DNA of 57,427 nucleotides from a virus: positions 1-57,427 of the IMG/VR virus record IMGVR_UViG_3300050821_005911. One strand, 5' to 3'. The translations under genes were made by a program, and so were the position numbers. Every line of letters starts with the position of its first letter. Position 1 is the stretch's first letter. Below the pieces are notes generated by a model. The model was given only the letters and a program-made list of their open reading frames with translations, was not told the origin of the DNA and did no database searches. This document shows positions 8,403-39,758 of the stretch, piece by piece.

Positions 8403-9038
8403 TCAGATGCTCCTCGGCAGGGCGTCGAGGGCCGTATTGACATCCGCGCTCGCCGTGTGCTCGGTGATAATGGCGACGTAGGTCTCCTTCATCGTGTTCT
8501 CCGCCTGCGTCGTCAGACTCGCCCCCAGCTTGTCGTAGTGCTTGAGTTCCTCCGCCGAGGGATTCGCGGCCAGCTTCTGCATCGCCAGCGGCAGCAGGGC
8601 CAGGATAGCGTTGACCGCAGCGATCCCCAACCCTACGAACTGGGTAAGCTTGGCGATGGTAGACGCATCCGTGACATCCAGCCCATTGAGGATGCTCTGA
8701 AATTGGCTGAGCACGGACTGCATAACCACCTGAAGCTGAGAGATAACCGACGCGGACGCCGACTGCTTGAGCGCGGCGATGATAGCCTCGGCGTTCGTGA
8801 TCTCGGTGGCCACATTCTGCTGCCACTTCTGCACGGCGGCCAGGAACGCGGGAGAGACCGTCTTACCCTGTAGCGCGGCAGCGAAGGCCACGATGGCGTT
8901 GACTACCGCCGCGAGGGACGGCAGCAGGGCGCCGATGGCCGTGATCCACGTCGAGGTGCAGCCGGTGAGGGCGAGGAGTGATTCGATGATGGTGAGGGTG
9001 AGGAATACTTGCCAGAATACGGTGCGATTGAATCTCAT
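8403..9038 (-). CDS. Predicted lipoprotein, mostly helical
   Basis: 211 aa from the ATG at 9038, which follows AGGAGG by 8 nt and overlaps the upstream stop (ATGA). Residues 1-27 form a lipoprotein signal (MRFNRTVFW... LLALTGC) with Cys27 as the likely lipidation site. The rest is Ala/Leu/Gln-rich and helical, with hydrophobic stretches (GIAAVNAILALLPLAM). Longer starts upstream lack a ribosome site. A phage lipoprotein beside cell-wall enzymes could act as an outer spanin-like or exclusion factor; neither is shown. The ribosome-site sequence is the same as the one before the gene at 23128. Confidence 0.75.
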   Translation of the reverse strand: MRFNRTVFWQVFLTLTIIESLLALTGCTSTWITAIGALLPSLAAVVNAIVAFAAALQGKTVSPAFLAAVQKWQQNVATEITNAEAIIAALKQSASASVISQLQVVMQSVLSQFQSILNGLDVTDASTIAKLTQFVGLGIAAVNAILALLPLAMQKLAANPSAEELKHYDKLGASLTTQAENTMKETYVAIITEHTASADVNTALDALPRSI

Positions 9039-9445
9039 TGTGGTGCCTCCTGAAGTGTAGCGATTGTATCGAGTGCGTGATCTGCTGAATCCCATATACG
9101 CTCGCGGATGGCCCTCGGCAGGATGATACATCCGTCGCTGGCGTATCCCGGCGGCGGCTCCTCCCGCTCCCCGTGGATGCGGAACGACTCTGGATCGCGG
9201 TCCAGCATCTGCACATGCGCTGTGGTCGCCGCATCCGGCACCAGGATCAGCGTGAACGGTCCCGTGCGAGGGCTATCCTCGACGCCTGTGATGACCCACG
9301 ACCCCGCCGGGATAGGTCCGATCCCCCGCTCTCCGACAGCAGCGAAGTCGTTGACATGGGGTGGCTGGCCGGAGTAGCCAATGTCCAGCAACTCTCCGAC
9401 GTCGGAGTACATCTTGCCGCTTATGATCTCGTAGGTCCAGCTCAT
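9035..9445 (-). CDS. L,D-transpeptidase-like hydrolase (Tlde1/DUF2778 type)
   Basis: 136 aa. The start at 9445 overlaps the upstream stop (ATGA). The core GPIPAGSWVI, then FRIHGE (H91) and YASDGCIILP (C106), is the pattern of YkuD-like enzymes of the DUF2778/Tlde1 group, in which a His-Gly and a Ser-x-Gly-Cys-Ile motif make the active site. Members act on peptidoglycan stem peptides; Tlde1 is a type VI effector. In a phage this would be an endolysin-type or virion wall enzyme. No signal peptide. With the papain- and NlpC-like genes it makes three distinct cysteine hydrolases within 2.5 kb. Confidence 0.7.
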   Translation of the reverse strand: MSWTYEIISGKMYSDVGELLDIGYSGQPPHVNDFAAVGERGIGPIPAGSWVITGVEDSPRTGPFTLILVPDAATTAHVQMLDRDPESFRIHGEREEPPPGYASDGCIILPRAIRERIWDSADHALDTIATLQEAPQ

Positions 9446-10484: not shown

Positions 10485-10643
10485 TCAACGAAAATGAGCC
10501 CCTAGCCCAGATCCTCCCAGCAATATGCTCAGGAAATAGCAGGCTAGACTAAGCCATCCTAGTGACCAGCGTGGCTGGCCGATGTTGAATCCCGCTAAAC
10601 ATGCGAGCACGAACGCGAACACGAGGAAGATGATCGAGATCAT
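10485..10643 (-). CDS. Small two-helix membrane protein (holin-like)
   Basis: 52 aa (MISIIFLVFAFVLACLAGFN..., then WLSLACYFLSILLGG). Two hydrophobic segments flank a short RW turn. AAAGGAGG lies 6-7 nt before the ATG, and the start overlaps the previous stop (ATGA). Size, topology and neighbours fit a class II holin or holin accessory. The function is inferred. Confidence 0.65.
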   Translation of the reverse strand: MISIIFLVFAFVLACLAGFNIGQPRWSLGWLSLACYFLSILLGGSGLGAHFR

Positions 10644-11116
10644 TTACTGCCTCCTTTGTCAACACTTGGCGCCTGACCGACCGCCGTCGTCGTGACCGGC
10701 CCCACCGGAGTCTTACTCGGCAAATCCTTAGGCTCGTCCTTAGCCTGTTCCACCATCGCCTTCTGCGCCGTCGGCCTCTGCGCCAACTGAATCTCCGCGA
10801 AGTGCTGGGTGCCGAACTGGATCGCCCAGTGCCACACGCCTACGACCAGCGCGGCGTTCGATGGGAACACGACCAGGAGCTGATGGCCGCCCGTCGTCGA
10901 GACCGGACTCCACGCCCACGATACACCCAGCGTACCTATGCCCGCCATCAAAACCCGCAACCACGTGTTCAGCCGCGTCGAGTAGTAGCTGATCCGCGGC
11001 ACCTGCTTGAGCCGCTTGGCCCAGTCGAGCAGGTAGGCGGATACGATGGCTACCCCGACCGAAGTGGGGATGACGGACGAGCTAGGTGCGAGCGGTGATG
11101 CTGTGTCAAACAACAT
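10640..11116 (-). CDS. Membrane protein, candidate holin
   Basis: 158 aa with about three hydrophobic segments: near 15-35 (VGVAIVSAYLLDWAKRL), 52-70 (WLRVLMAGIGTLGVSWAW) and 80-100 (AALVVGVWHWAIQFG). A soluble Pro/Thr/Lys-rich tail follows. The layout resembles phage holins, and the two following genes also encode membrane proteins. No family is assigned. Confidence 0.6.
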   Translation of the reverse strand: MLFDTASPLAPSSSVIPTSVGVAIVSAYLLDWAKRLKQVPRISYYSTRLNTWLRVLMAGIGTLGVSWAWSPVSTTGGHQLLVVFPSNAALVVGVWHWAIQFGTQHFAEIQLAQRPTAQKAMVEQAKDEPKDLPSKTPVGPVTTTAVGQAPSVDKGGSK

Positions 11117-11131
11117 TGCGTCTCCTTATCA

Positions 11132-11491
11132 TCAGTGACACCCCGTGAGCACGATCCCGCCAGTCGGAGTGATGGTCTCGCCGGTGCAGGTGATGGTCGC
11201 TTGGATCGAGCCGCTCGCGCCCGCTGCGCCTGTAGCTCCGGTAGGGCCTTGTGGACCAGCAGGACCAGTCGCTCCAGCAGGACCAGCAGGACCAGCGGGT
11301 CCAGTCAACGCAGCATAGGTCGCGCCGTTGAATGACACTAACACGGACGATCCAGTACCGCATAAAACCGTGGTTCCAGTAGCCGGCGTGATGCAGGGGC
11401 CAGCGGTCGTCGGCGTCGAAAAAGCGATTGAGCTACCCGACTGCGCGACCGCTACCGCCGTGAGCATGAGACATACGATGAGTGTTTTCAT
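11132..11491 (-). CDS. Secreted collagen-like protein
   Basis: 119 aa. The start at 11491 overlaps the upstream stop (ATGA). Residues 1-17 are a Sec signal peptide (MKTLIVCLMLTAVAVAQ). A short Thr-rich domain follows, then about ten Gly-x-y triplets (GPAGPAGPAGATGPAGPQG..., residues 70-100) and a small Cys-containing end. Collagen-like triplets are common in phage tail fibres, where they trimerise. A signal peptide on such a protein is unusual, and the three following upstream genes share the feature. Confidence 0.75.
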   Translation of the reverse strand: MKTLIVCLMLTAVAVAQSGSSIAFSTPTTAGPCITPATGTTVLCGTGSSVLVSFNGATYAALTGPAGPAGPAGATGPAGPQGPTGATGAAGASGSIQATITCTGETITPTGGIVLTGCH

Positions 11492-14400
11492 TTCGTCGAG
11501 ATACCTCCTTCTACATTGACTTGACCGTTCATCGTGAATGTGGGTAGGGCGGGGGCGGGGCCGCTGACCGGCAGCAGCGCTAAGAACACGTCGTTGCGGG
11601 GAGTGCCCAGATTCGTCCACGTACAAGTGTTATCCGTGGTGGTGCCGCTGATGGTCTGATTCCACGTCGCTGGCTCCGTCGCTCCGCTAGTGCAGGAGCC
11701 TCCGCTCTGGAATGTGTAGCCGAATCCACCACTCCCAGTGTTACCAACGCTCGGATTGATGAGAGCATTGGCCGCGTAGGCGTTGTTCAGCGTCCAGTCC
11801 GGCCCGCTTGGAGTGCAGCCCACGGACGTGCCATTCGTACAGCCGAGCATGCTGTCCCAGTCCGTGGTCCATAGCAGCTTCGATCCACTTGGCGATAGTC
11901 CGGCAGGGATGAACGCCTGCACGTTAATAAGGCTAACGTAGTGGTGCAGCAACCGCCACACGCGCCCGGTGCCATCCGTCGCCACGCCTAGGATTTCGTT
12001 GCTCCATGCATAGTTCGGCGTGAAGCCAGTGAACTCCATCGCGGATACGAAAGGCTGGTTGTCGCCGGAGGTGTCATTGGCCCAGTTGACATGGGCTTGA
12101 TTGCCTTCGTCGGGGCTGGGGTAGGCCGCTGGCAGAGATACCTGAGTGTTCGGAGTAGCCAGAGCAGACTTGAACAGTCCGTTGGCGTCGGTCACCCCAG
12201 AGCATTTGTTGACCCAGTAGTTGTAGCCCGCCGCTGTGTGTCCGCAGGAGTTGGCGCTGGTAACGATAGTTACGTTCGCTGTTCCATTCTGCCATAAAGT
12301 ATTCGTGACTCCCGCTGTACAAGTGCTGATGCAGCCCCCCTCCTGCACCTTAAGATACGTGCCACCCTTGGTCAGTTCCACCTTGTGGATTGCAAAGCGG
12401 TCGCTAGGCGTGATGGTTCCGATTAGCGTTGCGCCGTTGAAAGTCTGCCCCGTTTTTGTATTCCAATAGCTACATCCGGTAGTGCGGTTCCAGGTGATGG
12501 CGTAGATTAGTCCGTCCGTCGGCTCTCCTGCCACAACGCCAAAGGTTTGGTCGTCGCCGCTTACCAGAATGTTCGCCACGCTAGAGCCGGAGACTTGTAT
12601 CGCAGAAATGCTGCACGCGGTTGCCAGATCTACTACTACCGTTACTGCCGCTCCGGTAGGATTGCAGGTCGCTATTCCCCCCGCGCAGGTAGTGTCGTAG
12701 GCGAAGATCGTAGGGTCGTTTTGCGTGCAGCCTGAGGTGGCGGCAGGACAAGGATGATCGTGATACATGATGTAAGGCTGCGTGAAGGACCATGCCGGTG
12801 TCCCAACGCCAGGAGATACGAACGAAGTGCTCCGGGTAGCTACCTTAGTCACCGCGTTATACGCCCACAACTGCTGCCAGTTCCCACTTTGACAAATCGT
12901 GAACCGATCCTCGTTGAGGTTCCAAATGTTGACTTCTGAGTTGGCGTCACAGCTAGTCGTATAACCAGCGTGCAGCGCGGATTGACCTCCCGTGGCCATG
13001 TCACTGATACGGATGACTGGCGTGTACGGAAAGTCTGACGGAGTGAAATAGTAGTTCGATCCGTTCAGTGCACCCCCGCCTGAGCATCCGAGTGATGATG
13101 GGCAGGGAATGGTTGCTGGATAGGGTTGGGGGCTTAGGTCGGTGCGGGCGAAATAGATCAGCGGAGTTGAACTGACGGCCGCCTGCCAAAATCCCATGTT
13201 CCACGGCACGGAGCGAGCGGTGCCAAAGTAATCCGTAGTGAACGATCCAGAAAGATTGGCTCCGGTGCCGAGCGCCCCTGATCCTACCTGCAACTGAAAG
13301 TTCACATCTACGCCGGGGAGGGTCGTGGATACGTATTTAGGATCGGTCGTGATCGTGCTCGTTTCTCCGCTCGGCGTGCCAGAAGAGAACCAGTCGTTGT
13401 GGTCCTTCGTGGTTACGGTGCCCGAGATGTTGCCGCCGACACAGTTCGAGCCGATATTGTTCTCGACAGTGATCGTCGCGGCCTGACCGCCCTCGATTTC
13501 GACGCAGGGATCGTTGGTCTTGTAGACTGAGTTATTCTGTATGGATACCGAACTCCACAGTGCCGACACCGTGATACTGCCCACATTCGGACTGAACATA
13601 TCAATCCCGGCATTGTGACCGACGCCGCTGGTCTCGTTCACGATCATGTTGTTACGAACCGTGACCGCTCCGCGGCCTGGCGCAGTGTTCCATCCTTCTG
13701 CGAGCGCTATACCGTCGTGATTCGTCGCGCCAGTGAAGGTGGTGCCTTCGCAATAATTGGCTTCGATCCGCGTAGCAGACTCGATCACGAGGCACTGCCC
13801 GTCGTTACCCGCTGTACCGGTGCCTGCCTTGGTTGTACGGATCGTGTTACTCAGTAGTCGCAGATTGGTATGCCCGTCTTTGACATCGATCCCGTCTCCT
13901 TGCCCACCTACCGTTGCGCAGGATTCGTGGACGTTACCTTGGATTAGATAGTTGTCTCCTGTGTGGCAATTCGGCATGCAGTTGCCAAGGCCAGGGTCTT
14001 CGGTGACTTGATTCGGGGTTGCGGATTGCACTGGGTCAGGCGTCGAGGCTCCAATGTAGAGACACTCACCAAAGGTGTTGTGGGCGTGATTGTATTGCCA
14101 AGTGATGTTATCGGGGCCGCCTGCTGGCTGCGCTGCACATCCGAATCCACCTTTGCCGGGACCATTGTTCCCCGGTCCGACGATCGCGCCAGGGCCAACC
14201 GTACTCCCTACCGCCGTATAGTCGAGGTTTTGGAACGTCATGTTGCTCAGGTAGATGCCGTCGATGGGCTGAGCGCTGGTCGCAATGAAGTTGAATCCCT
14301 GAATGATTCCGCCGCCTTCGCAGTTCGTGACTGTGCCATTGCTGCCGAAAGGCGAACCAGCGGTGATCGTAAACCGGGACGCAGATGCCCACGCGCATCC

Positions 14401-14814
14401 AGCGGCGTCCCATTTGCAGAGTTGCGGTGCGGCGACATTGGAGTTCCACGTTGCCGGAGGGCTGCTGTCACTAGGATTCCAGAAACTCATGCCGTCGAGC
14501 GTAAGTGTGCAGATGGTGGTGCTGCCCGCACAGGCTAGCGTGTAGTTCGTGCGGGCGTAGTTGATGCCTGCTGTGGATGCCTGGCTCGCCGTGCCGCCCG
14601 CGCATCCGGTTTGCGGACAAGCGGAGAAGTTGACCACCACCGGCCCAGTCGAGAGCGCGGAGTTGATCGAGGTCCAGTTGAGCGTCTGCCAAGGGTTCGT
14701 CGTCGTGCCTGTATGCGTGCCAGCAGATACGTCAGGATCGAGCCAGAACGTAGTCGTGGTCTGTGCCCAGCAGGAGCCACAGAGTAACACGAGGATGTAG
14801 GCGAGTTTTCTCAT
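11488..14814 (-). CDS. Secreted beta-helix / propeller-like tailspike-type protein
   Basis: 1108 aa from ATG 14814, within a TAATG overlap. The signal peptide is MRKLAYILVLLCGSCWAQ. Residues 20-500 have right-handed beta-helix character: repeats such as ITVENNIGSN, SVSIQNNSVYK and VRNNMIVNE typical of parallel-beta repeats that act as polysaccharide lyases or hydrolases. The C-terminal half (SEVNIWNLNEDRF, QPYIMYHDHP, GLIYAITWN, DRFAIHKVEL) reads like a WD/TolB-like propeller. Many cysteines occur. This may be a capsule- or glycan-degrading host-recognition protein. The enzyme class is not determined. Confidence 0.7.
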   Translation of the reverse strand: MRKLAYILVLLCGSCWAQTTTTFWLDPDVSAGTHTGTTTNPWQTLNWTSINSALSTGPVVVNFSACPQTGCAGGTASQASTAGINYARTNYTLACAGSTTICTLTLDGMSFWNPSDSSPPATWNSNVAAPQLCKWDAAGCAWASASRFTITAGSPFGSNGTVTNCEGGGIIQGFNFIATSAQPIDGIYLSNMTFQNLDYTAVGSTVGPGAIVGPGNNGPGKGGFGCAAQPAGGPDNITWQYNHAHNTFGECLYIGASTPDPVQSATPNQVTEDPGLGNCMPNCHTGDNYLIQGNVHESCATVGGQGDGIDVKDGHTNLRLLSNTIRTTKAGTGTAGNDGQCLVIESATRIEANYCEGTTFTGATNHDGIALAEGWNTAPGRGAVTVRNNMIVNETSGVGHNAGIDMFSPNVGSITVSALWSSVSIQNNSVYKTNDPCVEIEGGQAATITVENNIGSNCVGGNISGTVTTKDHNDWFSSGTPSGETSTITTDPKYVSTTLPGVDVNFQLQVGSGALGTGANLSGSFTTDYFGTARSVPWNMGFWQAAVSSTPLIYFARTDLSPQPYPATIPCPSSLGCSGGGALNGSNYYFTPSDFPYTPVIRISDMATGGQSALHAGYTTSCDANSEVNIWNLNEDRFTICQSGNWQQLWAYNAVTKVATRSTSFVSPGVGTPAWSFTQPYIMYHDHPCPAATSGCTQNDPTIFAYDTTCAGGIATCNPTGAAVTVVVDLATACSISAIQVSGSSVANILVSGDDQTFGVVAGEPTDGLIYAITWNRTTGCSYWNTKTGQTFNGATLIGTITPSDRFAIHKVELTKGGTYLKVQEGGCISTCTAGVTNTLWQNGTANVTIVTSANSCGHTAAGYNYWVNKCSGVTDANGLFKSALATPNTQVSLPAAYPSPDEGNQAHVNWANDTSGDNQPFVSAMEFTGFTPNYAWSNEILGVATDGTGRVWRLLHHYVSLINVQAFIPAGLSPSGSKLLWTTDWDSMLGCTNGTSVGCTPSGPDWTLNNAYAANALINPSVGNTGSGGFGYTFQSGGSCTSGATEPATWNQTISGTTTDNTCTWTNLGTPRNDVFLALLPVSGPAPALPTFTMNGQVNVEGGISTK

Positions 14815-17800
14815 TATGGTCCGATGAATGCCGTTGGTAAGGCCGATGGTCCGCTGCTGTTGGTAATCGCACCCAGCGCAGAGTTGGTGAACACTCCCGC
14901 CGTGCAGGCGTTTGCCGTTGTGCCAATACTGCCCGACTGTGCTGGCTGAGTATAGTCGTAGACGGACTGGCTTAGGACGAAGGTGTTCCACAACACCGTC
15001 GTGATCGTGCTGGAACACTGCGCGAGGTAGTACGTTCCCGGAGCCAGCGTAAGAACCGTGCTCGGAGTCTGAGCCGTGTTAGCCGCTCCGGTGCAGGCTG
15101 CGCCAGCGCCACCGTTGATATGAGTGATGATGTTCAATCCTTGATCTGCGATGGCTACGTCGAACACACAGGACGCTACGCCCGTGTTGACACTAGTAGT
15201 GATCTTGCTGACCTTGACCGGAACTTTCAGTACGAACTGTACCGCGAACGGCGTATTGATCGCGGTCAGTGGTAGCCCCGCCTGCGGATTGGCTCCTAGG
15301 CCAGGGATGTCCGGCAGCAAGACTCCTCCCTTGCCCGCAGTTCGCACCGAGTCCAAGTTGCTGATCCAGTTTGTTCCGTTAGAGATGATTTTCAGCGTGT
15401 TACAGGGCGGCAGGAATATCTGTGTGGTGTCACCGTCGAGCGTCAGAGAGTTGGCGGGTAGGACGTAGAGTCCCCAGCCAGAAGCACAATCATTGCGGAC
15501 GAACTCATACGTACCCGAGGCGGTTATCGTGCTCGGCAGCGTGTGGGTCACGGCGGTCGCGGAACTGACCGTATAGACTACTTCGGTTGCAGAGGTCGTT
15601 GATGACGAGAAGTCACCGGAGACTGTAGTGTAGTTAGCCGTCTTTGTCAGGATCGTATATGCACCTGATGCACCGGAACCACCGCTAGCGGCTGCCCATG
15701 TATTGTCTCCGCGTAGGAACGTCGTGCTGCTGGGCGTTCCGGTAGCTGTCAGATCCGCGATAGCTACGCCGCTGCTGGTGCAAGTCTGCGTCGATCCAGC
15801 GAAGTGGCAGAGGCCGACTCCGGGCGACACCGCCGTCACCAGATTGACTGGGTTGAGGCTGAACTGCGTAAAGGTCACCGCATCCGTACCCACAGTATTT
15901 ACAGTGGAGGTCTGCAGCCACGAGGTAGACCCGTTGGCCGTACCCGACTGCACCGGGATCGAGCCGGTGGTGTTCATGTCCGAGGGCTGGTCGTAGTTGA
16001 GGGCGCGGGTGAACACTGGCGAGATGCCGGTCGCGCCGACCACCGTAGCCGTGTAGATGCCGTTCTGGAACCCAGAGGCTTGATTCTTGAGCAGGACACG
16101 CTGGCCGATAGTGCCAATGCTGATGCCGTCGAGCGTGAAGGCTCCGGTCGCGGTCACAGTGAACGTAGCCCCGATGCCGCTGGCTCCGTTGGCGTAGGTG
16201 CCGGTCAGAGATGCCGTGGACGCTGCAAGCACGGCTACCGCTGGATTGACCGCCGCGATAGCGTTGTTCACCGCTGTCGTGACGAAGCTATCCGTTGCGA
16301 CGTCCGCTGTGCTGTCTCCCGCAGCCTGCGTCGTCGCCGTGATCCCGTTCGGCAACGCACCGATGGCCAGCGCCGTGGTCGGCAGCGAGCCGCTGACGTC
16401 GGACGCCAAGTTGACTGGACTAGAGGTCACCGTCTGCGTCGAGCCAGCGAAGTGCGCGATCCCGGCTCCCGGCGATGACGCCACGACGCAGGTTGCGCAG
16501 GCGATGGTCCCGGTCGTGGTGATGGTGCCACCGGTGATCGGGGAGGTCGTGGCGATCGAGGTGACGGTGCCGCTACCGCCGCCGAATGACGTGATGGTGA
16601 GACCCCCAGCGACGCCTCCGGTGCGCGAGAACGTGATACCGCTGCCCGCGATCAACACGGATTCGTCCACATCCGCGGCCCAATTGCTCCCCACGCTGGG
16701 ATCGACGTAGAACCATACGTTCTGGCCGTTGTGGATAGCCAGCGTGGCCGCGCCGTTGACGGTCCAGCCACCAGCAGGCGTCACAGTGATGTCGTTGACC
16801 GTGGTGATGTTGTTGGTCAGCTTGAAGACGCACAGCGGGACGGCCAGCGTCGAGGGAGTAGGCAGGGAGGTCGCTACGGCCACGGAGCCGATGTACTCTA
16901 CGCGGCTGGTGCAATCGGCGGAGACGAGGGTGTCGGTGGCGGTGGTGCCTGTGACGGCGCGTCCAGCAACGCCCGGCAGGGACCATGTTGGCAACGAGGC
17001 TACACCACCGGCAGGCGTCGAGGTTAGCACCCACGCGATGTTGGGCGTCGTGGGACCAGCCACGCGGATCGCCGACGATCCATTGTAGGTGATCATGTCG
17101 CCGAGAGTGGTCATCGGATCCGCGAATCCCGACGGGCAGGTCTGGAAGCTGGGATCGCTGCTGGTGCCGTTGGACATGAAGCAGTTGCCCAGCGCACCGG
17201 GGGAGGCGAGCACGAAGGCGGCGCTGCCTTCGGCGAGGGGGACGGTGTGCGCGGTCGGGGAGGATACGCCAGTACCCCCGTTCACTGGCAGCAGGATTCC
17301 CGTGACGCCACCTGCGCCGCTGGTAGCGATGTTGATCGCGGGGATGTCTGCACCGACGAGGGCGCGGAAGGTCGGCGCGCCACTGGAGCCGTTCGGCGCA
17401 ATGAACGCGAAGTTGGCCGTCTCAGACGCGAAGGCCAGGTTCAGGTTGCCGGTAGTGGTCACCGGGCTGCCGGTGATCGTGAACACGGATCCCGTCTGCG
17501 TCAGTCCGACGGACTGGACCGCGCCGACGCAGTTCGCGCCTGCCGACGTGAGGCAACTGAATCCGCCGCCGGACGTAGCGAACAGTCGGACGTTACCCGC
17601 GCCGGGATTCCCAGGCGCGGTCGAGGTAGGGAGATCGACGTACTTGTTCGTCTGCTGGTCCAGCGTCTCGATGTCGGCGCCGGAGTTGCCGACGGCCCAG
17701 AAGTTAGCTCCGAGGGCGCCCACAGTGTGGGTCACGGTGCCGCCGCCGCCACCCGCGCCGCAGTCAGCGCCTGTGCCAGAGACCAGCCCGGTGGTATCGA

Positions 17801-20800
17801 CGTGCAGGCATTGCGTGGAGCCGGTGATCCCGCGCAGTTGCAGCGAGCCGCCGAGGCTGTTCTTGGCAGTACCGGCCTCGTAGATCCCCCACGGGTCAGG
17901 ATTGTTGGCGCCGCCTCCGGTCTGATCGGCCATGTAGAAGCCGTAGTTGTGGCTGGATGTCCCGGTCAACACCGGCGAGTCCGCGTAGAACGCGGCGCTG
18001 AATGGATTGGTGAGAGTAGACTTCTGTACTTGGACTTGGCCGTAGACACCTTCGAGCAGAGTAGCCGTCTGGCCGCCGGCGCTGAGGTCGCCTACCTGCC
18101 CGATCCCGACGACGCCGGATGCGACCGCCACGGTGCCGCTGAGTCCGTTCGTGTTCGTAGTGCCAACGACGCCAGCGAGCCAACTAGGACTGCCAGCCGC
18201 ACCTAAGAATCCAGATCCGTAGACACCTGCGATGAACGGAGTAGAGGTGAGGGTCGTAGTCCCAGTAGCCGACGATCCAAACAGAGCGGTAACTTCGCCG
18301 GTAGCACCAGCGGGAGCACCAATACGTCCGACCACTTCATAACAAGCAGGCTCCGTGGCCCAACTGGTGCCAATGCTACAACTCCCAGGGAGAGATGTTC
18401 CCGAGAATGCTCCGTTGGGGGCACTGATAGCCAAACCGGAAGCAGTCGTAGAGATAGACTCGGTGGTGGATACGGTGGTGCCGTTGTCGATCAGCGAGGA
18501 GTTTCCAAGGTTGGTGGAAGAGGTCCACACGGGGAGGTGGTTGAGGGTGCCTGCGCCGGTCAGGCCACTACCGCCGCTGGCGCAACCTGCTGTGGTGAAC
18601 GCACCGTTGGGGCCGTTGGGACAGATAGGAGAGGTGCCCGCAGGGATATTGGTTACGACAAGTGAGCCGGTTGTATTTGTAACGGGCAGGCTAGTCGAGT
18701 CTCCCGCGAGGCCGGTGTCGTTAAATTTATATGCACTTGTAAATAAACCAGCGTTGAGGGTATAGCCGAAGGTTGGGATACCACTATTCGCTTTGAACTG
18801 TAGAGCAGATGTGCAGCCTATATCTCCAGTGCTGGAAGGTGTGCCGCTGGAGGAGGTGCGCCAGATGCAGTACTTCGTCGCCCCGGCCACGGGGTACCAC
18901 TGAATAATGTTGAAGTTGGTCGTATTGAGCGTTGCCGCTCCGGTTGTGGTGTTCGATGCCGAGCTTCCGGCTGTGTTCCCAAGCGGCCCGTAGGCCACGA
19001 CGGCATAGGTGTAACTCGTACTCGCTCCGGTGCCGCCCTGCGTGACCGAGAGCACGGCAGGATTAGGTATCTGTGTGATGTTAATCCCCGGATACGATCC
19101 GTCCCAGCCGAACATCTCCGTTCCGGTTGCGCCTTGCTGATGCTTAATGAGAAAGGTGCCGCCTTGGTTGGTCAGGCCGCCCGCGGGAATGTTCTGCAAC
19201 ACGAAATCATCAGGCAGGCTAGAGCCGACTGAGAGATACCCACGGAAGTCGAGAAATGCAGAGGAAAAGTTAGGTCCGGTGCCGGAATAGACAGGCGATA
19301 TCATCATACGATCATCTAGAATCTTTAGATCGTCGGAGTTGGCCACATTGGAATTCGTCCACCACTTGTTGAACGTCTCGTTGGGCCACGTGTTTCCCTT
19401 GGTGTAGATAGTTCCACCAGAACCGTTGTTGTTGGTGCCAATAAGCTTAGCAATTCCTGCATCTGGATCCCAGCCATTGCCTTCGATGATCCAAGACGAC
19501 CCTGTCGGTGTGTCGATGAAGTAATTGGCTGTATTAGTGCAGCCTGCTGTACCCCAGTGATTGTCCCGGACAACGACTGGAAATCCCGGACCACTGCTGC
19601 TGGAATCGCCGTTCGTATTGATAAACTGCGTATCGTCCTCTCCAATGCTTTTCTCAAGAACGTCTACATCGGTCGTGGTGTCGATCCGGATGTCTGAGCC
19701 TGCGCCGCTGCCACAAGTTCCGCCGTTCAGCTCAAACTCATTGTTCGAGACGTACATCGAACCGTTCTTCTGATAGATCCCATAGAAGCACTGGGTGAAT
19801 GAGCTGTCTTTGATCACCTCAGACTTAGCATTGGCTGAAGGGCCGATCAGCACGCCGACTCCGGCAGTCGTAGACAAGGGAGCCCCACAGTAAAATGCCG
19901 AATTTTCGACTTGCATGCGTTCGACGTTGTTTCCAGAAACCGGCGAGATTGATAAGCCGACCCAGTTCGTCGCAGCACCGTTGAATGTGTCGTCTACAAA
20001 TCTACCGTCGGTAGTGTTCCATACTCCCCCTGATCCGTTCTTATCGACTATGATTCCAACTCCGCCGTTGGTGCCACCCACAAGCGATATCCCATGAACG
20101 TTGAAACTGTCCACGTACTCCATTTGGATCATCGTGCCAGAAGCTGCGCCTGTCCATGTGAATGTCGGAGAAACGCCTGCAGATCCACCGCGAGTTAACC
20201 CCTCGATGATGAAACTGGCTTGGTTGTAGATGGTCCAGGTATTCGCTAGGTTAATGGCAGGGCAGTTGCCGAACGATAGCGTCAGGCCGCTGATGGCGTT
20301 ATTCGACGCTGGGGGGTTACCAGTAAGCGAGTTTAGGATTGAGGAGGCATCCACGACGCCAGTACAATCGACGCCGAGATCCCGCACATCCATAGCCCAT
20401 TTAGTCTGAAATGCTGCGAACGCACTGGTGCCTTGAGACGCCAGCCAAGATCCTTTGGCTGCGTTGGCGATCCCGCCGAACGACACTCCGCTGGCGTTGG
20501 TCTGGAGCTGGAATACGGACCCGCCGGGATTGCCTGCGGAGGAGATCGGCCCCACCTTGAGCCAGTGCCCGCCGCTGCAACTGTAGAAGTCTCCGGTGGA
20601 TTGGTTGAGTGCGGTCTGTGGGGGGCTACAAGTGCCGGTCGGGACGCCGGGGAATACAATCATTCCTCCAGGGCCACTCGTTGGTAGTAACGGCAGTAGT
20701 GGCGTAAGGATAGAGGATATATTCTGAGTTCCTCCAGTGATAGTAATGAGAATATTAGCTTTGCAATACGGCCCAGCGAGGTAGCCGCCAGCGGAGCAGA

Positions 20801-21098
20801 TAGAAAACGACCACTGGGAGGGAGTGGGCGTTACCGTCAGCACGTTGTCGGCTAGGTTGATGGAAAAGTTGCCCTGCGAGTCGCAGGTACCCTGCTGACC
20901 GTTCAGAAGTGGTGCAGGAGCATAGGGGCCGACGCCAGGGGTCGAGTTCTCGCCGACGAAGACGACAGACCATTGGCAGTTCACGTAAACGGAACCAGCT
21001 GAATCCTGAACTTTTGCCGTGACTACAGTTGTACCCGACTGCCCATATGCGACGGCAGCGAATAGCAACAGGATATAGATAATTTTGGTATTGATCAT
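14814..21098 (-). CDS. Giant secreted tail fibre/spike protein with pectate-lyase-like domain
   Basis: 2094 aa, the largest gene, from ATG 21098 in a TAATG overlap. The signal peptide is about residues 1-19 (MINTKIIYILLLFAAVAYG). An N-terminal domain of about 100 residues has four conserved Cys and is shared with the 676-aa neighbour. A pectate-lyase-type start (VRDLGVDCTGVVDASS) opens a beta-helix with runs such as VENSAFYCG and YVSNNEFELN. The long Gly/Thr/Ser-rich C-terminal half holds fibre-type repeats: GIAHFAGSTQTVTSS and GLCHFAGSTQTCTSS, and NGGTG modules. Very likely the main receptor-binding or depolymerase fibre. Confidence 0.8.
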   Translation of the reverse strand: MINTKIIYILLLFAAVAYGQSGTTVVTAKVQDSAGSVYVNCQWSVVFVGENSTPGVGPYAPAPLLNGQQGTCDSQGNFSINLADNVLTVTPTPSQWSFSICSAGGYLAGPYCKANILITITGGTQNISSILTPLLPLLPTSGPGGMIVFPGVPTGTCSPPQTALNQSTGDFYSCSGGHWLKVGPISSAGNPGGSVFQLQTNASGVSFGGIANAAKGSWLASQGTSAFAAFQTKWAMDVRDLGVDCTGVVDASSILNSLTGNPPASNNAISGLTLSFGNCPAINLANTWTIYNQASFIIEGLTRGGSAGVSPTFTWTGAASGTMIQMEYVDSFNVHGISLVGGTNGGVGIIVDKNGSGGVWNTTDGRFVDDTFNGAATNWVGLSISPVSGNNVERMQVENSAFYCGAPLSTTAGVGVLIGPSANAKSEVIKDSSFTQCFYGIYQKNGSMYVSNNEFELNGGTCGSGAGSDIRIDTTTDVDVLEKSIGEDDTQFINTNGDSSSSGPGFPVVVRDNHWGTAGCTNTANYFIDTPTGSSWIIEGNGWDPDAGIAKLIGTNNNGSGGTIYTKGNTWPNETFNKWWTNSNVANSDDLKILDDRMMISPVYSGTGPNFSSAFLDFRGYLSVGSSLPDDFVLQNIPAGGLTNQGGTFLIKHQQGATGTEMFGWDGSYPGINITQIPNPAVLSVTQGGTGASTSYTYAVVAYGPLGNTAGSSASNTTTGAATLNTTNFNIIQWYPVAGATKYCIWRTSSSGTPSSTGDIGCTSALQFKANSGIPTFGYTLNAGLFTSAYKFNDTGLAGDSTSLPVTNTTGSLVVTNIPAGTSPICPNGPNGAFTTAGCASGGSGLTGAGTLNHLPVWTSSTNLGNSSLIDNGTTVSTTESISTTASGLAISAPNGAFSGTSLPGSCSIGTSWATEPACYEVVGRIGAPAGATGEVTALFGSSATGTTTLTSTPFIAGVYGSGFLGAAGSPSWLAGVVGTTNTNGLSGTVAVASGVVGIGQVGDLSAGGQTATLLEGVYGQVQVQKSTLTNPFSAAFYADSPVLTGTSSHNYGFYMADQTGGGANNPDPWGIYEAGTAKNSLGGSLQLRGITGSTQCLHVDTTGLVSGTGADCGAGGGGGTVTHTVGALGANFWAVGNSGADIETLDQQTNKYVDLPTSTAPGNPGAGNVRLFATSGGGFSCLTSAGANCVGAVQSVGLTQTGSVFTITGSPVTTTGNLNLAFASETANFAFIAPNGSSGAPTFRALVGADIPAINIATSGAGGVTGILLPVNGGTGVSSPTAHTVPLAEGSAAFVLASPGALGNCFMSNGTSSDPSFQTCPSGFADPMTTLGDMITYNGSSAIRVAGPTTPNIAWVLTSTPAGGVASLPTWSLPGVAGRAVTGTTATDTLVSADCTSRVEYIGSVAVATSLPTPSTLAVPLCVFKLTNNITTVNDITVTPAGGWTVNGAATLAIHNGQNVWFYVDPSVGSNWAADVDESVLIAGSGITFSRTGGVAGGLTITSFGGGSGTVTSIATTSPITGGTITTTGTIACATCVVASSPGAGIAHFAGSTQTVTSSPVNLASDVSGSLPTTALAIGALPNGITATTQAAGDSTADVATDSFVTTAVNNAIAAVNPAVAVLAASTASLTGTYANGASGIGATFTVTATGAFTLDGISIGTIGQRVLLKNQASGFQNGIYTATVVGATGISPVFTRALNYDQPSDMNTTGSIPVQSGTANGSTSWLQTSTVNTVGTDAVTFTQFSLNPVNLVTAVSPGVGLCHFAGSTQTCTSSGVAIADLTATGTPSSTTFLRGDNTWAAASGGSGASGAYTILTKTANYTTVSGDFSSSTTSATEVVYTVSSATAVTHTLPSTITASGTYEFVRNDCASGWGLYVLPANSLTLDGDTTQIFLPPCNTLKIISNGTNWISNLDSVRTAGKGGVLLPDIPGLGANPQAGLPLTAINTPFAVQFVLKVPVKVSKITTSVNTGVASCVFDVAIADQGLNIITHINGGAGAACTGAANTAQTPSTVLTLAPGTYYLAQCSSTITTVLWNTFVLSQSVYDYTQPAQSGSIGTTANACTAGVFTNSALGAITNSSGPSALPTAFIGP

Positions 21099-23128
21099 TA
21101 GAACGCTACCGCCCACGCGGCGGAGACTCGCTGGCACCATTTCCCCGTGCTCGATCCCGCTGTGCAGGTTGAATTGCAATCCGAGCAATAGCAGATCGTT
21201 CCGTTGGGATACGCCGGAAGCGTGGCAAAGGTTCGGCCCTTGGGCACAATCGCGCCATCGACGGAGTTGACGCTGAAGGTTGCGTTAGTGTCAGGAGTCG
21301 TGGCGGTAGCATTGTCGTTCGCCGGAGTCGCAGCGCTTTGGAGTATGGTGTACCATCCTCCAGCCGGAATCATGTCGTAGATCGTTCCCTGCGAGCCGTA
21401 TCCTCTGCATCCCGATTGCGCGGTATTGCCCGTGGAGACGTAGCACTCCTTCCAGCCGTGTGTGCCGACGAACGAGGGGCCACCGCCCATCGTCTCTGGT
21501 TGGGACGTAAGCACCGAAATACCGTCTAGGATTAAGGTCATTAACTCGCGTCGGTTGCGCGTGTCGATATACGCCGAACCCAGAGATCCGCTCAGCAATC
21601 CCTTTGTATAAGTAGAGTTATAGTCGTCATACGCAGTCCCTCCTTGGAATGACGCTCCGTTCCATTGCAGGATTTGATTTACCGCCGTGGCTGCACCGAG
21701 AAAGGCATTCGCCATCATCAGGTGTCCGGTGTCGTTCGGGTGAATGTTGTCGGAGATGGCCATAGTTGCCGGATTGTAGGGCGTGCTGTCATCAACTACG
21801 GTGATATTCAACCCGTCCGTTTGCAGTGGGGCTGCGGCTGCCACCTGAGCGACTCCGTACTGCGCCACGATTGCATCCGAGCCGTTGCCGTAGCCGCCGC
21901 CGATGGCATATCCAGTGGCGTTCATGCGGATGGTTTTCCCCAAGAACAAATACGGCCCACTCGAAGTCACTCCTGCGTTGCTGGCGAAATAATCCAGAAA
22001 ACAATTCTTAGTGGAGTTACCTACGGTATAGACGACGGTGTGTGTAGTAGATGCCAGACCGCCAACCCGGATCAGGTACAAACCCAGAGTTTGTCCAAGG
22101 ACCGTAGCGATGGCTGTCGGTTCCACCACGTTGGAAATCTGAGTGACGCCATCGACCGATACCGAATAGTTGCAATTGGTGGTCGCGTTTGAAACGGCTC
22201 CTATGTAGATCGCAGTTGCGTTGGGAGAGGTCCATGTAGCTGTGTCTCCGTTGGTAGCGGAGAATTCCTGGTTCCGTCCGAAGTTAGGCCCGGTAGAGGC
22301 CCACGTTCCTGTTTTCGTTACTGCCGCATTGGTGGCCAGCACTTTTGAGGCGGAGGGAAGGCTCAGCCACACCATTAAATTGTTGAGCGTGTGCAGATAG
22401 GTGGTCATGCCCGCGCCGTTCCCGTAGGCGCGCATATCGTTGTAACCGGTCATGAAGAAGTTGATCGTCGATGCGCTTACGGTGGCGGCCAGCATGCTGT
22501 TGGCCTGTCCGCTATCCTGTAACTGAGTTCCCGAGGTAGCGCTGTTGGTCAGACTCCAGAGCATCGTATTCGAGATAAGGTAGCCGAAGGAGCGTTGCGG
22601 AGAGCTGGCTCCGTTGCCAGTTCCAACCGAATCCCCGTATACCACGGCAGTCCCGCCGAGTAGAGAGCGCGGGATGCCAGGGGAGTTCATAACAAAGGCC
22701 CCTCCGCTGCTGGTGCTGCCAGTAGGTAGAACCGGAACAAGTGGCTGGAACGCAGAGGTAAGATTCATCGTAGGGCCAGTCACGGTAACAGCTATATTGG
22801 ATTTACAGTAGGGTCCGCCAACGACAGTAGAAGCTGAGCAGATCGAGAATGACCACTGCGAACCACCGGGAGAAATAGTGAGGTTATTGTCCGCAAGGGA
22901 CACACTTAGATTACCCTTGGAGTCACACTGGCCTTGCTGGCCGCCAAGTACCTGAGCAGGAGACGTAGCTCCCCCAGGGCCGGGAGATAGGACGACAGAC
23001 CACTGGCATCCGGAATAAAGGTTGCCATTGGCGTCCTGAACGACTGCGGTCACCTGCGTCATCTTGATCGTCTGCTGAGCAACGGCAGCGGTAGAGATTA
23101 GCAGGAGTAGGAGTGTAAGTCGTCTCAT
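21098..23128 (-). CDS. Secreted SGNH/GDSL esterase-type tail protein
   Basis: 676 aa, with AGGAGG 8 nt before ATG. The signal peptide is MRRLTLLLLLISTAAVAQ. Residues 25-130 are the Cys-containing N-terminal domain shared with the 2094-aa protein. An SGNH hydrolase follows: block I VVYGDSVGTG (Ser near 168), TGYNDM as block III, and SDNIHPNDTGH as the Asp-x-x-His block. A carbohydrate-binding-like insert (NCNYSVSVDG...) splits it, as in phage and cellulosomal deacetylases. The C-terminus is Cys-rich (ICYCSDCNSTCTAG...). Likely an O-deacetylase of host surface glycan, held by the same anchor as the giant fibre. Confidence 0.82.
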   Translation of the reverse strand: MRRLTLLLLLISTAAVAQQTIKMTQVTAVVQDANGNLYSGCQWSVVLSPGPGGATSPAQVLGGQQGQCDSKGNLSVSLADNNLTISPGGSQWSFSICSASTVVGGPYCKSNIAVTVTGPTMNLTSAFQPLVPVLPTGSTSSGGAFVMNSPGIPRSLLGGTAVVYGDSVGTGNGASSPQRSFGYLISNTMLWSLTNSATSGTQLQDSGQANSMLAATVSASTINFFMTGYNDMRAYGNGAGMTTYLHTLNNLMVWLSLPSASKVLATNAAVTKTGTWASTGPNFGRNQEFSATNGDTATWTSPNATAIYIGAVSNATTNCNYSVSVDGVTQISNVVEPTAIATVLGQTLGLYLIRVGGLASTTHTVVYTVGNSTKNCFLDYFASNAGVTSSGPYLFLGKTIRMNATGYAIGGGYGNGSDAIVAQYGVAQVAAAAPLQTDGLNITVVDDSTPYNPATMAISDNIHPNDTGHLMMANAFLGAATAVNQILQWNGASFQGGTAYDDYNSTYTKGLLSGSLGSAYIDTRNRRELMTLILDGISVLTSQPETMGGGPSFVGTHGWKECYVSTGNTAQSGCRGYGSQGTIYDMIPAGGWYTILQSAATPANDNATATTPDTNATFSVNSVDGAIVPKGRTFATLPAYPNGTICYCSDCNSTCTAGSSTGKWCQRVSAAWAVAF

Positions 23129-24588
23129 TGTGGTGCCTCCTCGGAGTAGTCTCCCATCACGGCGCGTAGAGGGAGAGCGTTGACAGCGGGCACGGAGGTC
23201 ACCTTCGCGGCTCCCGTGCGCAGGGCACGCTTGGTAGCCTGAGCGCCCTTCGGGAACGCCTTGGCGATACGCTCAGAGGAACGTTCCAGCGGATCGGTGA
23301 ACGCGGAGGGAGAGAGTCCCGCCACGCCGCCCGGAGTACCTGATTTCGGATGCAAGTAGGTGCGCAAGTGGACCTTCTCGCTGAGCGGTGCTCCCTGCCG
23401 CTCCATCGATGCCTTAGTCAAATCCTTCTTTGCTGCTTTGATGGAATCTTGGAATGTTATGAGTTGCGACTGCTTCTGCTTCAATGCCTTAAAGTATCCC
23501 GGAGGCTTGATACCGCTCTGGTCCGCGGCGCTGTAGAGCAAGTCCTTGAGAGAGTCCTCGGCAGCAGTGTCAGCGGCGATGTTGGCGTGGATCTTCTCGG
23601 AGGCGCTCTGAGCGGTAGGGATAGCCTTGTGATACGCCGTCAGTCGCTTAGTGATCAACTCTCGTTCCTTGTTGAGTTCCGCGATGGTCCATGTACCCTG
23701 CTCGAACTCAGTGGCTCGTCTCCTCAAATAGGCTGCCATTTTCCGCCCATCGACTGTCTTGACCATGTTCGGCGTAATCTCCCCACGGATCGCCTGACCT
23801 ACAGAATGCGCCACGACAGGTTGCTGCGCGATCGGGAACAGCGCCGTATTGAACTCCTGGTTGAGGGAGCGCTCGGTCGCGTGGACGAGTTGCTCCATGT
23901 CCGCGACGCCTGAGGCGCTCTTAGGACTACCTACGCGAGAGGCCACCTTGTCGAGATCCGGCAGCAGTCCCTTGATCTCCGGTCCCATCTCGCCGCTGCG
24001 GGTGCCGTAGGCCAATAGCGCCTCCCGGCTCGCGGGCTTCATGATCCGGCTCACGCCACCGATGGCCTGCCCGAAGCCCTCGGATACGCCTTGGACCGCT
24101 GCGCCCATGCCGATGTCCTTGGCCGCGTCGGCGGAACTGGCCATCGGCTTGCCCATGAAAGTGTGGATGAGTTGAGTCAGCGCACGGCCCGCTCCGCCAC
24201 CCAAGGCTGATCCGGCGATGGCTCCAGGAGGACCACCGGAAGCACCGAGCAATCCACCAGTAATGCCTCCTGCGGCGTCGAGGTTATTGATACCCGCGTT
24301 GCGCATCTTGTACAGTGCCGCCTTGACCGCATCCGTGCCATGCGGCCCGCTACTGATGACGGCTGTAGATGGCGGGATGCGCGTCATGTCGCTGAGCTTC
24401 CGCTGCTCTCCTGCGAGGCCGCTGGGGATCGTGCCGCCAGCGGGGATAGGGACGTTCGGTGGCGCTACATCGTAGTCCGGATGAGTGCGCAGGAAAGCCC
24501 CAGCTTGGTGCGACGGGATAGAATACGCCTTGCCATCCGGTCCCTTGAGCCGGACACGCTCGGTATCGGGTTGTGTCTGTGGAGGCAT
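23125..24588 (-). CDS. Putative internal virion / DNA-ejection protein with glycine-zipper segment
   Basis: 487 aa. The start gives a basic region, then a Gly/Ala-rich amphipathic stretch at about 105-135 (GGITGGLLGASGGPPGAIAG) like the membrane-inserting glycine zippers of ejection proteins, then long helices to residue 400. There is no signal peptide. Its place after the T7-like adaptor, nozzle and small internal proteins corresponds to T7 gp15/gp16. It ends EEAPQ and overlaps the SGNH gene (ATGA). Confidence 0.6.
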   Translation of the reverse strand: MPPQTQPDTERVRLKGPDGKAYSIPSHQAGAFLRTHPDYDVAPPNVPIPAGGTIPSGLAGEQRKLSDMTRIPPSTAVISSGPHGTDAVKAALYKMRNAGINNLDAAGGITGGLLGASGGPPGAIAGSALGGGAGRALTQLIHTFMGKPMASSADAAKDIGMGAAVQGVSEGFGQAIGGVSRIMKPASREALLAYGTRSGEMGPEIKGLLPDLDKVASRVGSPKSASGVADMEQLVHATERSLNQEFNTALFPIAQQPVVAHSVGQAIRGEITPNMVKTVDGRKMAAYLRRRATEFEQGTWTIAELNKERELITKRLTAYHKAIPTAQSASEKIHANIAADTAAEDSLKDLLYSAADQSGIKPPGYFKALKQKQSQLITFQDSIKAAKKDLTKASMERQGAPLSEKVHLRTYLHPKSGTPGGVAGLSPSAFTDPLERSSERIAKAFPKGAQATKRALRTGAAKVTSVPAVNALPLRAVMGDYSEEAPQ

Positions 24589-26998: not shown

Positions 26999-27577
26999 AT
27001 GCCAAAGATCCGTGTGTTTAGACACGAAGTCACCCAGCCGCTCGATCCATCCTACCGCTTGATCCCTCTTACACAAGGACAAAACGCCGTCGTAGATACT
27101 GAAGACTTTGAACGACTGTCGCAGTGGAACTGGCGTGTGTTGTGGCAACCCAGAATCAATAACTCCTACGCAGTTAGAGGGGTTAGAAAAGATGGGCGAT
27201 TCAGGGTAATCATGATGCATCGGTATATTCTTGGTATTACGGATAACAAACTCCAGACAGATCATAAGAATCACAACACACTGGATAATCGAAAAGCCAA
27301 CATTCGTCCTTGTACACAATCGCAGAACATGGCTAATCAGACTCTTCGAGTAACCAACAAATCTGGATTCCGTGGTGTACGACTTCGAGGAAAGCGCTGG
27401 GTCGCCAAGATAAGAATTGATGGAGTGTATAAATGCATAGGCACGTTCGACTCTGTTACTGAGGCCGCTATAGCTTACGCCAACGTTGCACGTAAGCACT
27501 TCGGAGAGTTCGTTAATGATGACGCCGTTCATGAGATTACCAATGCAGAACCGACCGCCTTTTCGACCACCTCATAG
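26999..27577 (+). CDS. HNH-AP2 homing endonuclease, antisense to the late operon
   Basis: 192 aa from ATG 26999, with GGAGG 7 nt upstream; the upstream ATG at 26963 has no such site. An N-terminal strand set (PLTQGQNAVVDTEDFERLSQWNW) leads to an HNH core (MMHRYILG...LQTDHKNHNTLDNRKANIRPCT), then an AP2-like DNA-binding domain (NKSGFRGVRLRGKRWVAKIRI...GTFDSVTEAAIAY). This is a standard phage-borne mobile endonuclease. It is the only + gene inside the structural block, is richer in A+T, and its last 49 bases overlap the end of the nozzle-like gene on the other strand. Confidence 0.92.
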   Translation: MPKIRVFRHEVTQPLDPSYRLIPLTQGQNAVVDTEDFERLSQWNWRVLWQPRINNSYAVRGVRKDGRFRVIMMHRYILGITDNKLQTDHKNHNTLDNRKANIRPCTQSQNMANQTLRVTNKSGFRGVRLRGKRWVAKIRIDGVYKCIGTFDSVTEAAIAYANVARKHFGEFVNDDAVHEITNAEPTAFSTTS

Positions 27578-32872: not shown

Positions 32873-33862
32873 TTACGCCGTGATATTGATAATTTTGTCC
32901 TGCATGCGCGGGCTGATGCATGACAATTGCCAGGTTAGGTACATCGTCGACACGAGCACCCGCTGGTTGCTCGGCTTGATGAACGGATCGACGTTGAAGT
33001 AGTCCGCCTCGTGGAACACAGGGAACGTGTACTTCGAGTTCAGGAAGTACGCCGAGTTGGACGCTGCGAACACGTCCGGCACCACGATCGCGTTGTTGAA
33101 CAGGAAGTGGTTGCGGAATCCAACCTGCAACGCTTCCTCGTCCTGCATCCCCTGGCCGAAGCGGACCAGCGTCGTGAAGTTGTTCTTGAATCCGGCGTAG
33201 CGGTTCTGCACGATCACCATCAAGTCTGGCTCGTCGTAGCCGAACGTGACCGCCTGATACGCGGTCTCGGCGTTGGCGGGAGTGAGCGTGCCCGACGTGT
33301 TGTTCTGGTTCGCGGCAGGCTGCCAGAAAGCGTTCACGGTCAGGTTGCGGTTGATGCCAGCGATGGTGTTGGTCGTCTGGCCGAACCACGAGTCGATGTC
33401 GTCGATGTCCAGCGATGTGTTCTGCGGCGACGTGTGCCACAGCGCCCGCGACAGCTTCATCAGGAACGACCCCGAGGCCGTCTGGTACTTGAGCTTGATG
33501 ATGTCCAGGTTGCCCGCGCCGCCGCGATTGAGGATGACGTCGGTGATCGGGATCACGATCGGCTGGCGGTAGGGACGCCACTGCTGGTTGGCTGGCTGCA
33601 CGGAATCGACGACGGACGTGTCCAGGAGCTGGTCGCCGTAGTACGCGCCGCCGGGGAGTTCCTCCTGGTTGATTTCGGGGAACACGAGTTCACCCGCTCC
33701 GAATTTCTTGCCGTCTCGGGTCAGCGCCCAGAACACGGGGGAAGGCTTGAACACGTTGTCGCCGAGCACCGGGACAATGTATTTCTGCGAGATCGCGTTG
33801 ACGGTGTTCGAGAGTTGGACCGGAGGGGATGCGAGTCCCAGTCCCACTACACTGTTCGCCAT
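32873..33862 (-). CDS. Major capsid protein
   Basis: 329 aa. The N-terminus (NAISQKYIVPVLGDNVFKPSPVFWALTRDGKKF) and the following GELVFPEINQEELPGGAYYGDQLLDTS, plus the later region with TSLDIDDIDSWFGQTTNTIAGINR, have the look of HK97-fold capsid proteins with an N-arm, E-loop and A-domain. It follows a scaffold-like gene at the correct place after the portal. The length is typical for a capsid protein with a separate scaffold. Exact family not determined. Confidence 0.8.
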   Translation of the reverse strand: MANSVVGLGLASPPVQLSNTVNAISQKYIVPVLGDNVFKPSPVFWALTRDGKKFGAGELVFPEINQEELPGGAYYGDQLLDTSVVDSVQPANQQWRPYRQPIVIPITDVILNRGGAGNLDIIKLKYQTASGSFLMKLSRALWHTSPQNTSLDIDDIDSWFGQTTNTIAGINRNLTVNAFWQPAANQNNTSGTLTPANAETAYQAVTFGYDEPDLMVIVQNRYAGFKNNFTTLVRFGQGMQDEEALQVGFRNHFLFNNAIVVPDVFAASNSAYFLNSKYTFPVFHEADYFNVDPFIKPSNQRVLVSTMYLTWQLSCISPRMQDKIINITA

Positions 33863-36299: not shown

Positions 36300-36430
36300 T
36301 CACAACACTGCAAACACATATTACAGCGCATGCAGGTATCTAATATCCCTACCTGACTATCGCAAGCCATACAAAACCTCACCATGTAAGACATATCTCC
36401 GCTGAGACAATGCTTCCGCTCGAAACTCAT
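36260..36430 (-). CDS. Cysteine-rich zinc-binding mini-protein (copy B)
   Basis: 56 aa from ATG 36430, overlapping the portal stop (ATGA). It has nine cysteines: CLSGD, then CMACDSQVGILDTCMRCNMCLQCCEC. The CxxCNxCxxCCxC end is the same as in copy A, so the two are probably an old tandem duplication. The DNA is AT-rich compared with the portal gene. Confidence 0.6.
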   Translation of the reverse strand: MSFERKHCLSGDMSYMVRFCMACDSQVGILDTCMRCNMCLQCCECQFLMMTIYEAF

Positions 36431-39561: not shown

Positions 39562-39758
39562 AATTCACCTATAACTTGTATGCCAGCATGCTTGTTAGCT
39601 TTGTCCCAATCAATCCACGCAATAGCCTCGTCCTCGGTTTTAAACGCTGGGCCAGTGCGCCAAAATGGCCACAGACTATACTTGAGAGTAGAGCGAAATT
39701 GAACATGATAGCGCAATCCATACCAGTTTGACGGAACGAAGTAGATTCTATATTTCAT
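39558..39758 (-). CDS. Small hypothetical protein
   Basis: 66 aa, aromatic-rich (MKYRIYFVPSNWYGLRYHVQF...) with a terminal helix (TEDEAIAWIDWDKANKH). The layout of a two-stranded sheet and helix recalls small phage single-domain proteins. The DNA is less GC-rich than its neighbours, so it may be a recent arrival. It couples to terminase by overlap of the ATG with the terminase stop. Confidence 0.55.
   Translation of the reverse strand: MKYRIYFVPSNWYGLRYHVQFRSTLKYSLWPFWRTGPAFKTEDEAIAWIDWDKANKHAGIQVIGEL

Follow-up and report, generated by a model that had tools for sequence, protein, structure and literature searches.

Predicted Sec-exported, cysteine-paired fibre-type proteins in a clade of soil tailed phages

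The fibres and tailspikes of short-tailed phages of the P22, T7 and N4 types are assembled in the cytoplasm. Their genes close the structural operon, adjoining the lysis genes, and the proteins combine an N-terminal domain of about 100–120 residues with swappable enzymatic or binding C-termini. Both features recur in a four-gene block of the tailed phage record IMGVR_UViG_3300050821_005911 (IMG/VR; 57,427 nt, GC 60%), which was analyzed over its whole length and is referred to as the window. However, the known fibres of these types carry, to our knowledge, no signal peptides, in contrast to the products of this block.

A comparable layout is found in the MAT (mosaic adhesive trimer) proteins of Bdellovibrio bacteriovorus, in which a signal peptide is followed by a beta-rich domain of ~130 aa and then a fibre (PMC10769870). 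The likeness observed is one of layout; MAT proteins are bacterial, reside on the predator cell surface and in many cases contain S74 domains (PMC10769870), while no match to S74 (PF13884) was found in the window. Phages of Porphyromonas gingivalis encode exported proteins of not known function which, like the set described here, have Sec signals that expose an N-terminal Gln, but these have not been reported as fibre cassettes or disulphide-bonded fibres (PMC10367356). Pantoea WceF is likewise an exported, glycan-active protein of tailspike fold; it differs in being bacterial, in its Tat signal and in not being a phage gene (PMC7949094). In the literature searched, which covered few subscription papers, there was no report of signal-peptide-bearing fibres or fibre cassettes in tailed phages. 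The suggestion in the original prediction that the block is an undescribed system agrees with this literature, with the proviso that proteins with export signals have already been reported from P. gingivalis phages (PMC10367356).

On the minus strand of the window, the genes for terminase, portal, a scaffold candidate, the major capsid protein, an adaptor and hub-type proteins follow one another (Table 1). The major capsid protein is ~25% identical to its counterparts in Myxococcus phages Mx8 and Mx9, which indicates distant kinship; Mx8 differs in that none of its 11 structural or packaging proteins checked has a signal peptide. Four cysteine-free proteins (115, 201, 336, and 487 aa), which are probably ejection proteins, precede the signal-bearing block, and for the 487-aa protein position and composition make a role as ejection or internal virion protein likely. 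The first gene past the block encodes a 158-aa holin candidate, and this and the Tlde1-type lysis candidate are followed by a lipoprotein and then, at the end of the late operon, by a papain-like C1 peptidase (7608–8402, minus strand; Pfam 4e-10).

Table 1. Positions of the signal-bearing genes, their parts and neighbouring late genes in the window.
Feature	Position	Strand	Remarks
Terminase large subunit	39758..41518	-	phrog_2
Portal protein	36427..38109	-	phrog_156
Major capsid protein	32873..33862	-	phrog_9953, E 3e-19
870-aa tail hub-type virion protein	27529..30141	-	no signal peptide; conserved in clade
487-aa protein	23125..24588	-	no signal, 0 Cys; directly upstream of 676-aa gene
676-aa signal-bearing fibre-type protein, SGNH/GDSL hydrolase motifs	21098..23128	-	mature Cys 13
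Predicted signal peptide of 676-aa protein, MRRLTLLLLLISTAAVA followed by Q	23078..23128	-	score 12.6
N-terminal domain of 676-aa protein, 4 paired Cys	22709..23059	-	53% identical to 2094-aa copy
2094-aa signal-bearing tail fibre-type protein	14814..21098	-	mature Cys 36
Predicted signal peptide of 2094-aa protein, MINTKIIYILLLFAAVAYG followed by Q	21042..21098	-	score 11.8; cut site assumed by Q-rule
N-terminal domain of 2094-aa protein, modelled beta-sandwich	20664..21035	-	AlphaFold pLDDT 80, pTM 0.70
C-terminal module of 2094-aa protein, common to annotated tail fibres of marine/freshwater phages	15759..16199	-	tblastn
1108-aa signal-bearing protein	11488..14814	-	mature Cys 34
Predicted signal peptide of 1108-aa protein, MRKLAYILVLLCGSCWA followed by Q	14764..14814	-	score 10.8
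119-aa signal-bearing collagen-like protein	11132..11491	-	mature Cys 4
Predicted signal peptide of 119-aa protein, MKTLIVCLMLTAVAVA followed by Q	11444..11491	-	score 11.3
Gly-X-Y collagen-like repeat in 119-aa protein	11210..11302	-	Pfam Collagen 26.4 bits, slightly below 27.2 cut-off
158-aa membrane protein, holin candidate	10640..11116	-	from position and hydrophobicity
Tlde1/L,D-transpeptidase-like protein, lysis candidate	9035..9445	-	Pfam Tlde1_dom 34.9 bits, above cut-off

Several further genes were recognized by eye. A GIY-YIG-like homing endonuclease ORF (30138–30836, minus strand) sits between the adaptor and hub genes, and a small acetyltransferase-like protein (26553–26954, minus strand) lies within the structural operon and is retained in 16 homologues found. 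Upstream of the terminase, at 41915–46032 on the minus strand, there are glycosyltransferase-like, methyltransferase-like and DNA cytosine methyltransferase-like genes, possibly for DNA or surface modification. HNH-like ORFs are present at 1223–1789 (plus strand) and 47551–48132 (minus strand). Both contig ends (1–116 and 57276–57427) consist of GGCGGC-type low-complexity repeats, which may be assembly ends or a coding-region repeat. No tRNA was found in the window, and promoter and terminator scans of the signal-bearing block gave hits at chance level only.

Signal peptides were assessed with a home-made scorer of n-, h- and c-regions, for which ten E. coli signal peptides (8.6–12.3) served as calibration; the features sought were a basic n-region, a hydrophobic core of 8–12 residues and a small-x-small site within 15–30 residues. 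The original prediction held that four neighbouring proteins begin with classical Sec signal peptides. The ORFs, their lengths and their location on the minus strand were confirmed, and all four starts have the features of Sec/SPI signal peptides, with scores of 10.8–12.6. The remaining plausible genes of the window score at most 7.1, apart from two lipoprotein-like proteins (46042–46386 and 8403–9038), and for each of the four starts the observed score was reached by 0.02–0.16% of shuffled N-termini. The genes are also coupled as had been proposed, through ATGA at the junctions from the 487-aa to the 676-aa gene and from the 1108-aa to the 119-aa gene, and through TAATG from the 676-aa to the 2094-aa and from the 2094-aa to the 1108-aa gene. 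Strong AGGAGG-type ribosome sites were found for the 676-aa and 119-aa genes, and both ribosome sites and gene overlaps speak for the called starts of the four genes. Only one in-frame start, Met22 of the 676-aa protein, would delete a whole signal yet spare the domain behind it, and an AGGAGG-type ribosome site is lacking there; the annotated starts therefore hold against a start further downstream.

A domain of ~120 aa (N-domain) lies directly behind the signal in both the 676-aa and the 2094-aa protein, while the 1108-aa and 119-aa proteins are without it. A relative of the capsid protein is encoded at 78 virus loci; 36 records were examined. Of these, nearly all that cover the region contain a run of signal-bearing proteins between the ejection-protein and lysis genes, and three of them (G001–G003) encode additional signal-bearing proteins within the head-tail operon. 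Among the proteins with an N-domain, 39 of 45 were scored as signal-bearing (40 after correction of a wrongly called start in G008) even as their leader sequences have diverged, and the scorer overlooked several further signal-bearing proteins, such as those of 698 aa in G006 and 907 aa in G035. Homologous signal-less copies of the N-domain occur in close relatives. By comparison, the scorer called no more than 3 of 240 homologues of core virion proteins positive. It could be argued that the signal-like starts are due to chance or to wrong gene starts and that the proteins are ordinary cytoplasmic fibres, since the scorer is home-made and ~4% of antisense ORFs, some real genes included, pass its threshold. 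However, the recurrence in dozens of divergent phages, the low rate among core genes, the shuffling result, the ribosome sites and the cysteine pairing and parity described below rule this out for practical purposes.

A scan with the N-domain revealed a second phage group that lacks this capsid family but has the same arrangement of signal-bearing fibres, which were present in 22 of the 24 loci read (some near-identical). The capsid alignment gave no match in 15 second-group records, a set that held no positive control. One phage of the second group (L174) has a phrog_371-type capsid, and its signal-bearing fibre gene is located between the capsid gene and another structural gene. Beside the fibre gene, a small protein is signal-bearing in G028 (L139) and G036 (L149) and signal-less in G030 and G031 (L066 and L067), in each case matching the status of the adjacent fibre. 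The idea that neighbouring genes always switch their signals together was also considered and is broken by G008.

In Bacteroidetes, ~71% of signals have Gln right after the cleavage site, the so-called Q-rule (PMC10653852, PMC5837995). A motif [AGS]Q was present in range in 83 of 105 distinct signals of the signal-bearing set, compared with 231 of 737 signal-less control proteins, which suggests an adaptation to a host sharing this preference. The Q-rule alone leaves the host unfixed, because a GC content of 60% is unusual for Bacteroidetes and Acidobacteriota go without mention in the Q-rule paper. Scans of genome contigs with the capsid alignment and the second-group domain likewise gave no confirmed relative. 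A small-x-small site followed by Gln in most signals also bears on whether the hydrophobic N-terminus might stay uncleaved and tether the fibres as a membrane or virion anchor. Such an anchor would fit the longer hydrophobic leaders of some relatives, and cleavage is a prediction; yet the leader diverges rapidly and its n- and h-regions are short, as is typical of signal peptidase I substrates, and we consider the anchor very unlikely.

The cysteines provide a second line of evidence. The N-domain alignment has Cys at both columns 32 and 70 in 13 sequences and at both columns 109 and 126 in 17, and in neither pair does a Cys ever occur singly; two further pairs covary more weakly. In the model of the domain, the main pairs would sit on consecutive strands, at ends that face each other. 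The number of mature cysteines is even in 64 of 71 signal-bearing clusters (p 6e-13, an optimistic value as related sequences are partly non-independent) and in 14 of 34 signal-less clusters with at least four Cys. The same holds for all 10 full-length signal-bearing fibres of the second group (counted after residue 30); the odd exception in the window is the 676-aa protein with 13. At least two domain Cys are found in 56 of 57 signal-bearing N-domain copies, but in only one of six signal-less copies. The signal-less 226-aa copies in G013 and G016 have no domain Cys while being 47–48% identical to the domain of the 2094-aa protein, and the exception is the signal-less fibre of G030 and G031, which keeps four. 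The simplest reading of these data is folding in an oxidising compartment, for which the proteins must be exported unless their disulphides arise only after lysis, as they could. Taken together, the clade-wide signals, the pairing and parity of the cysteines and their loss in most signal-less copies strongly support the earlier proposal of export as a set, and Sec export of all four is predicted with high confidence.

Several observations point to fibres. Across 990 protein pairs, the N-domain could be aligned in 602 and the remainder of the protein in 24. A conserved N-domain with variable C-termini is what is commonly seen where a virion-docking domain carries a swappable tip, and it points to fibre-type proteins. 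The model of the N-domain matches the N-termini of the tail and neck fibres of cyanophage A-1(L) (8keg and 8kec, Z ~8), the lambda-type tail component 9e7m (Z 7.3) and predicted tail-fibre proteins in BFVD; CnaB, transthyretin and dioxygenase folds score alike, so that this common fold is weak evidence for a docking role. A PDB sequence search with the N-domain profile gave no matches, and the broad N-domain alignment was too divergent to serve as a scanning profile. A signal-bearing N-domain protein of G007 matches tail-fibre PHROGs (phrog_2631, E 1e-45), and a signal-bearing protein of G017 ends in a K1-lyase C-terminal domain (E 1.3e-5; 26.0 bits, cut-off 27), while many other signal-bearing proteins have no PHROG match. 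The C-terminal module of the 2094-aa protein is found in annotated tail fibres (tblastn E 8e-8 to 2e-4, 33–40% identity), four of which were checked and have no signal peptide and 0–1 Cys. The fibre-type identity assumed in the original prediction is therefore supported by the domain pattern, the tail-fibre PHROGs of a signal-bearing relative and the modules in common with marine phages.

In the 676-aa protein, which matches phrog_5240 tail fiber (E 3.7e-8), the SGNH motifs are intact (GDS 165–167, GxND from 228, DxxH from 460); the SGNH label given to it earlier rests on these motifs and on weak Pfam GDSL matches below the cut-off. For the 1108-aa protein, labelled a beta-helix in the original prediction, no family match was found, its single-sequence model reached a pLDDT of 31, and no relatives were found in viral contigs. 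INPHARED searches with the 676-aa protein, the 1108-aa protein and the second-group domain gave no matches. Among signal-bearing relatives, bacterial extracellular domains (ASH/HYDIN, CHB_HEX_C_1, Fn3_assoc) occur at L149:10065–14330, L123:13581–15371 and L132:15387–17858, suggesting exchange with host secreted-protein genes.

The SGNH motifs, the GDSL match and the extracellular domains would also suit exported proteins that never enter the virion. These could be esterases, expressed late and either secreted or bound to the surface, or proteins that bind or depolymerise glycans. Such products would remove extracellular polysaccharide at release, prevent superinfection or keep progeny from re-binding to debris. 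The same export evidence applies to them, namely signals, cysteine pairing, parity and cysteine loss, and there are precedents in the Tat-exported bacterial biofilm enzyme of tailspike fold (PMC7949094) and in the Q-rule proteins of P. gingivalis phages, whose function is not known (PMC10367356). Secreted enzymes, decoys or blockers, which the original prediction named beside addition to virions, are the main rival explanation and a serious one. The conserved N-domain with hypervariable C-termini, the signal-less homologues in close relatives and the tail-fibre PHROG families are at odds with it, no other fibre-like or receptor-binding candidate was seen in the window, and we hold this rival to be possible rather than probable. 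Mixed use, as virion fibres and as free secreted proteins, is also possible.

Our main reading, to which we assign a probability of roughly 0.55, is that these are Sec-exported, disulphide-bonded fibres or tailspikes whose maturation takes place outside the cytoplasm and which become part of the virion during lysis or later. The block would be the adsorption apparatus (tail fibres or tailspikes with accessory proteins) of a phage of short-tailed type, synthesised as Sec preproteins. Removal of the leader by signal peptidase I would in most cases leave Gln at the N-terminus, and the large Thr/Gly/Ser-rich chains would fold outside the cytoplasm, presumably in the periplasm, with all or nearly all Cys in disulphides. 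Meanwhile, virions would be filled and sealed in the cytoplasm while still lacking these fibres. Lysis would bring the contents of cytoplasm and periplasm together, and the fibres would then dock via the N-terminal beta-sandwich domain, such that the virion would be completed outside the cytoplasm of a probably diderm host. We lean towards the fibres joining the virion; docking at or after lysis is favoured because all fibre-like candidates of the window carry signals and because in P22 the tailspike is added to finished heads. We know of no tailed phage shown to add Sec-exported fibres after release. The odds are even, in our estimation, that this two-compartment building extends over the clade and unrelated phages, probably with similar hosts, with the signal as a switchable cassette gained and lost together with the cysteines.

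In this clade of soil phages, the fibre-type proteins combine predicted export signals with paired cysteines and appear to leave the cytoplasm and fold elsewhere before use. The fibres of well-studied tailed phages, by contrast, are made and attached inside the cell. According to the textbook view, the virions of tailed phages are completed in the cytoplasm; a group with exported, disulphide-stabilised fibres would, if true, alter that view and account for fibres rich in cysteines. It would also suggest that free fibres in the envelope block superinfection or re-adsorption. In engineering work, oxidising conditions would be needed during expression for such fibres to fold. Most signal-bearing fibres in metagenomes are without a family match, and a signal peptide together with an even number of cysteines is a practical flag for recognizing them.
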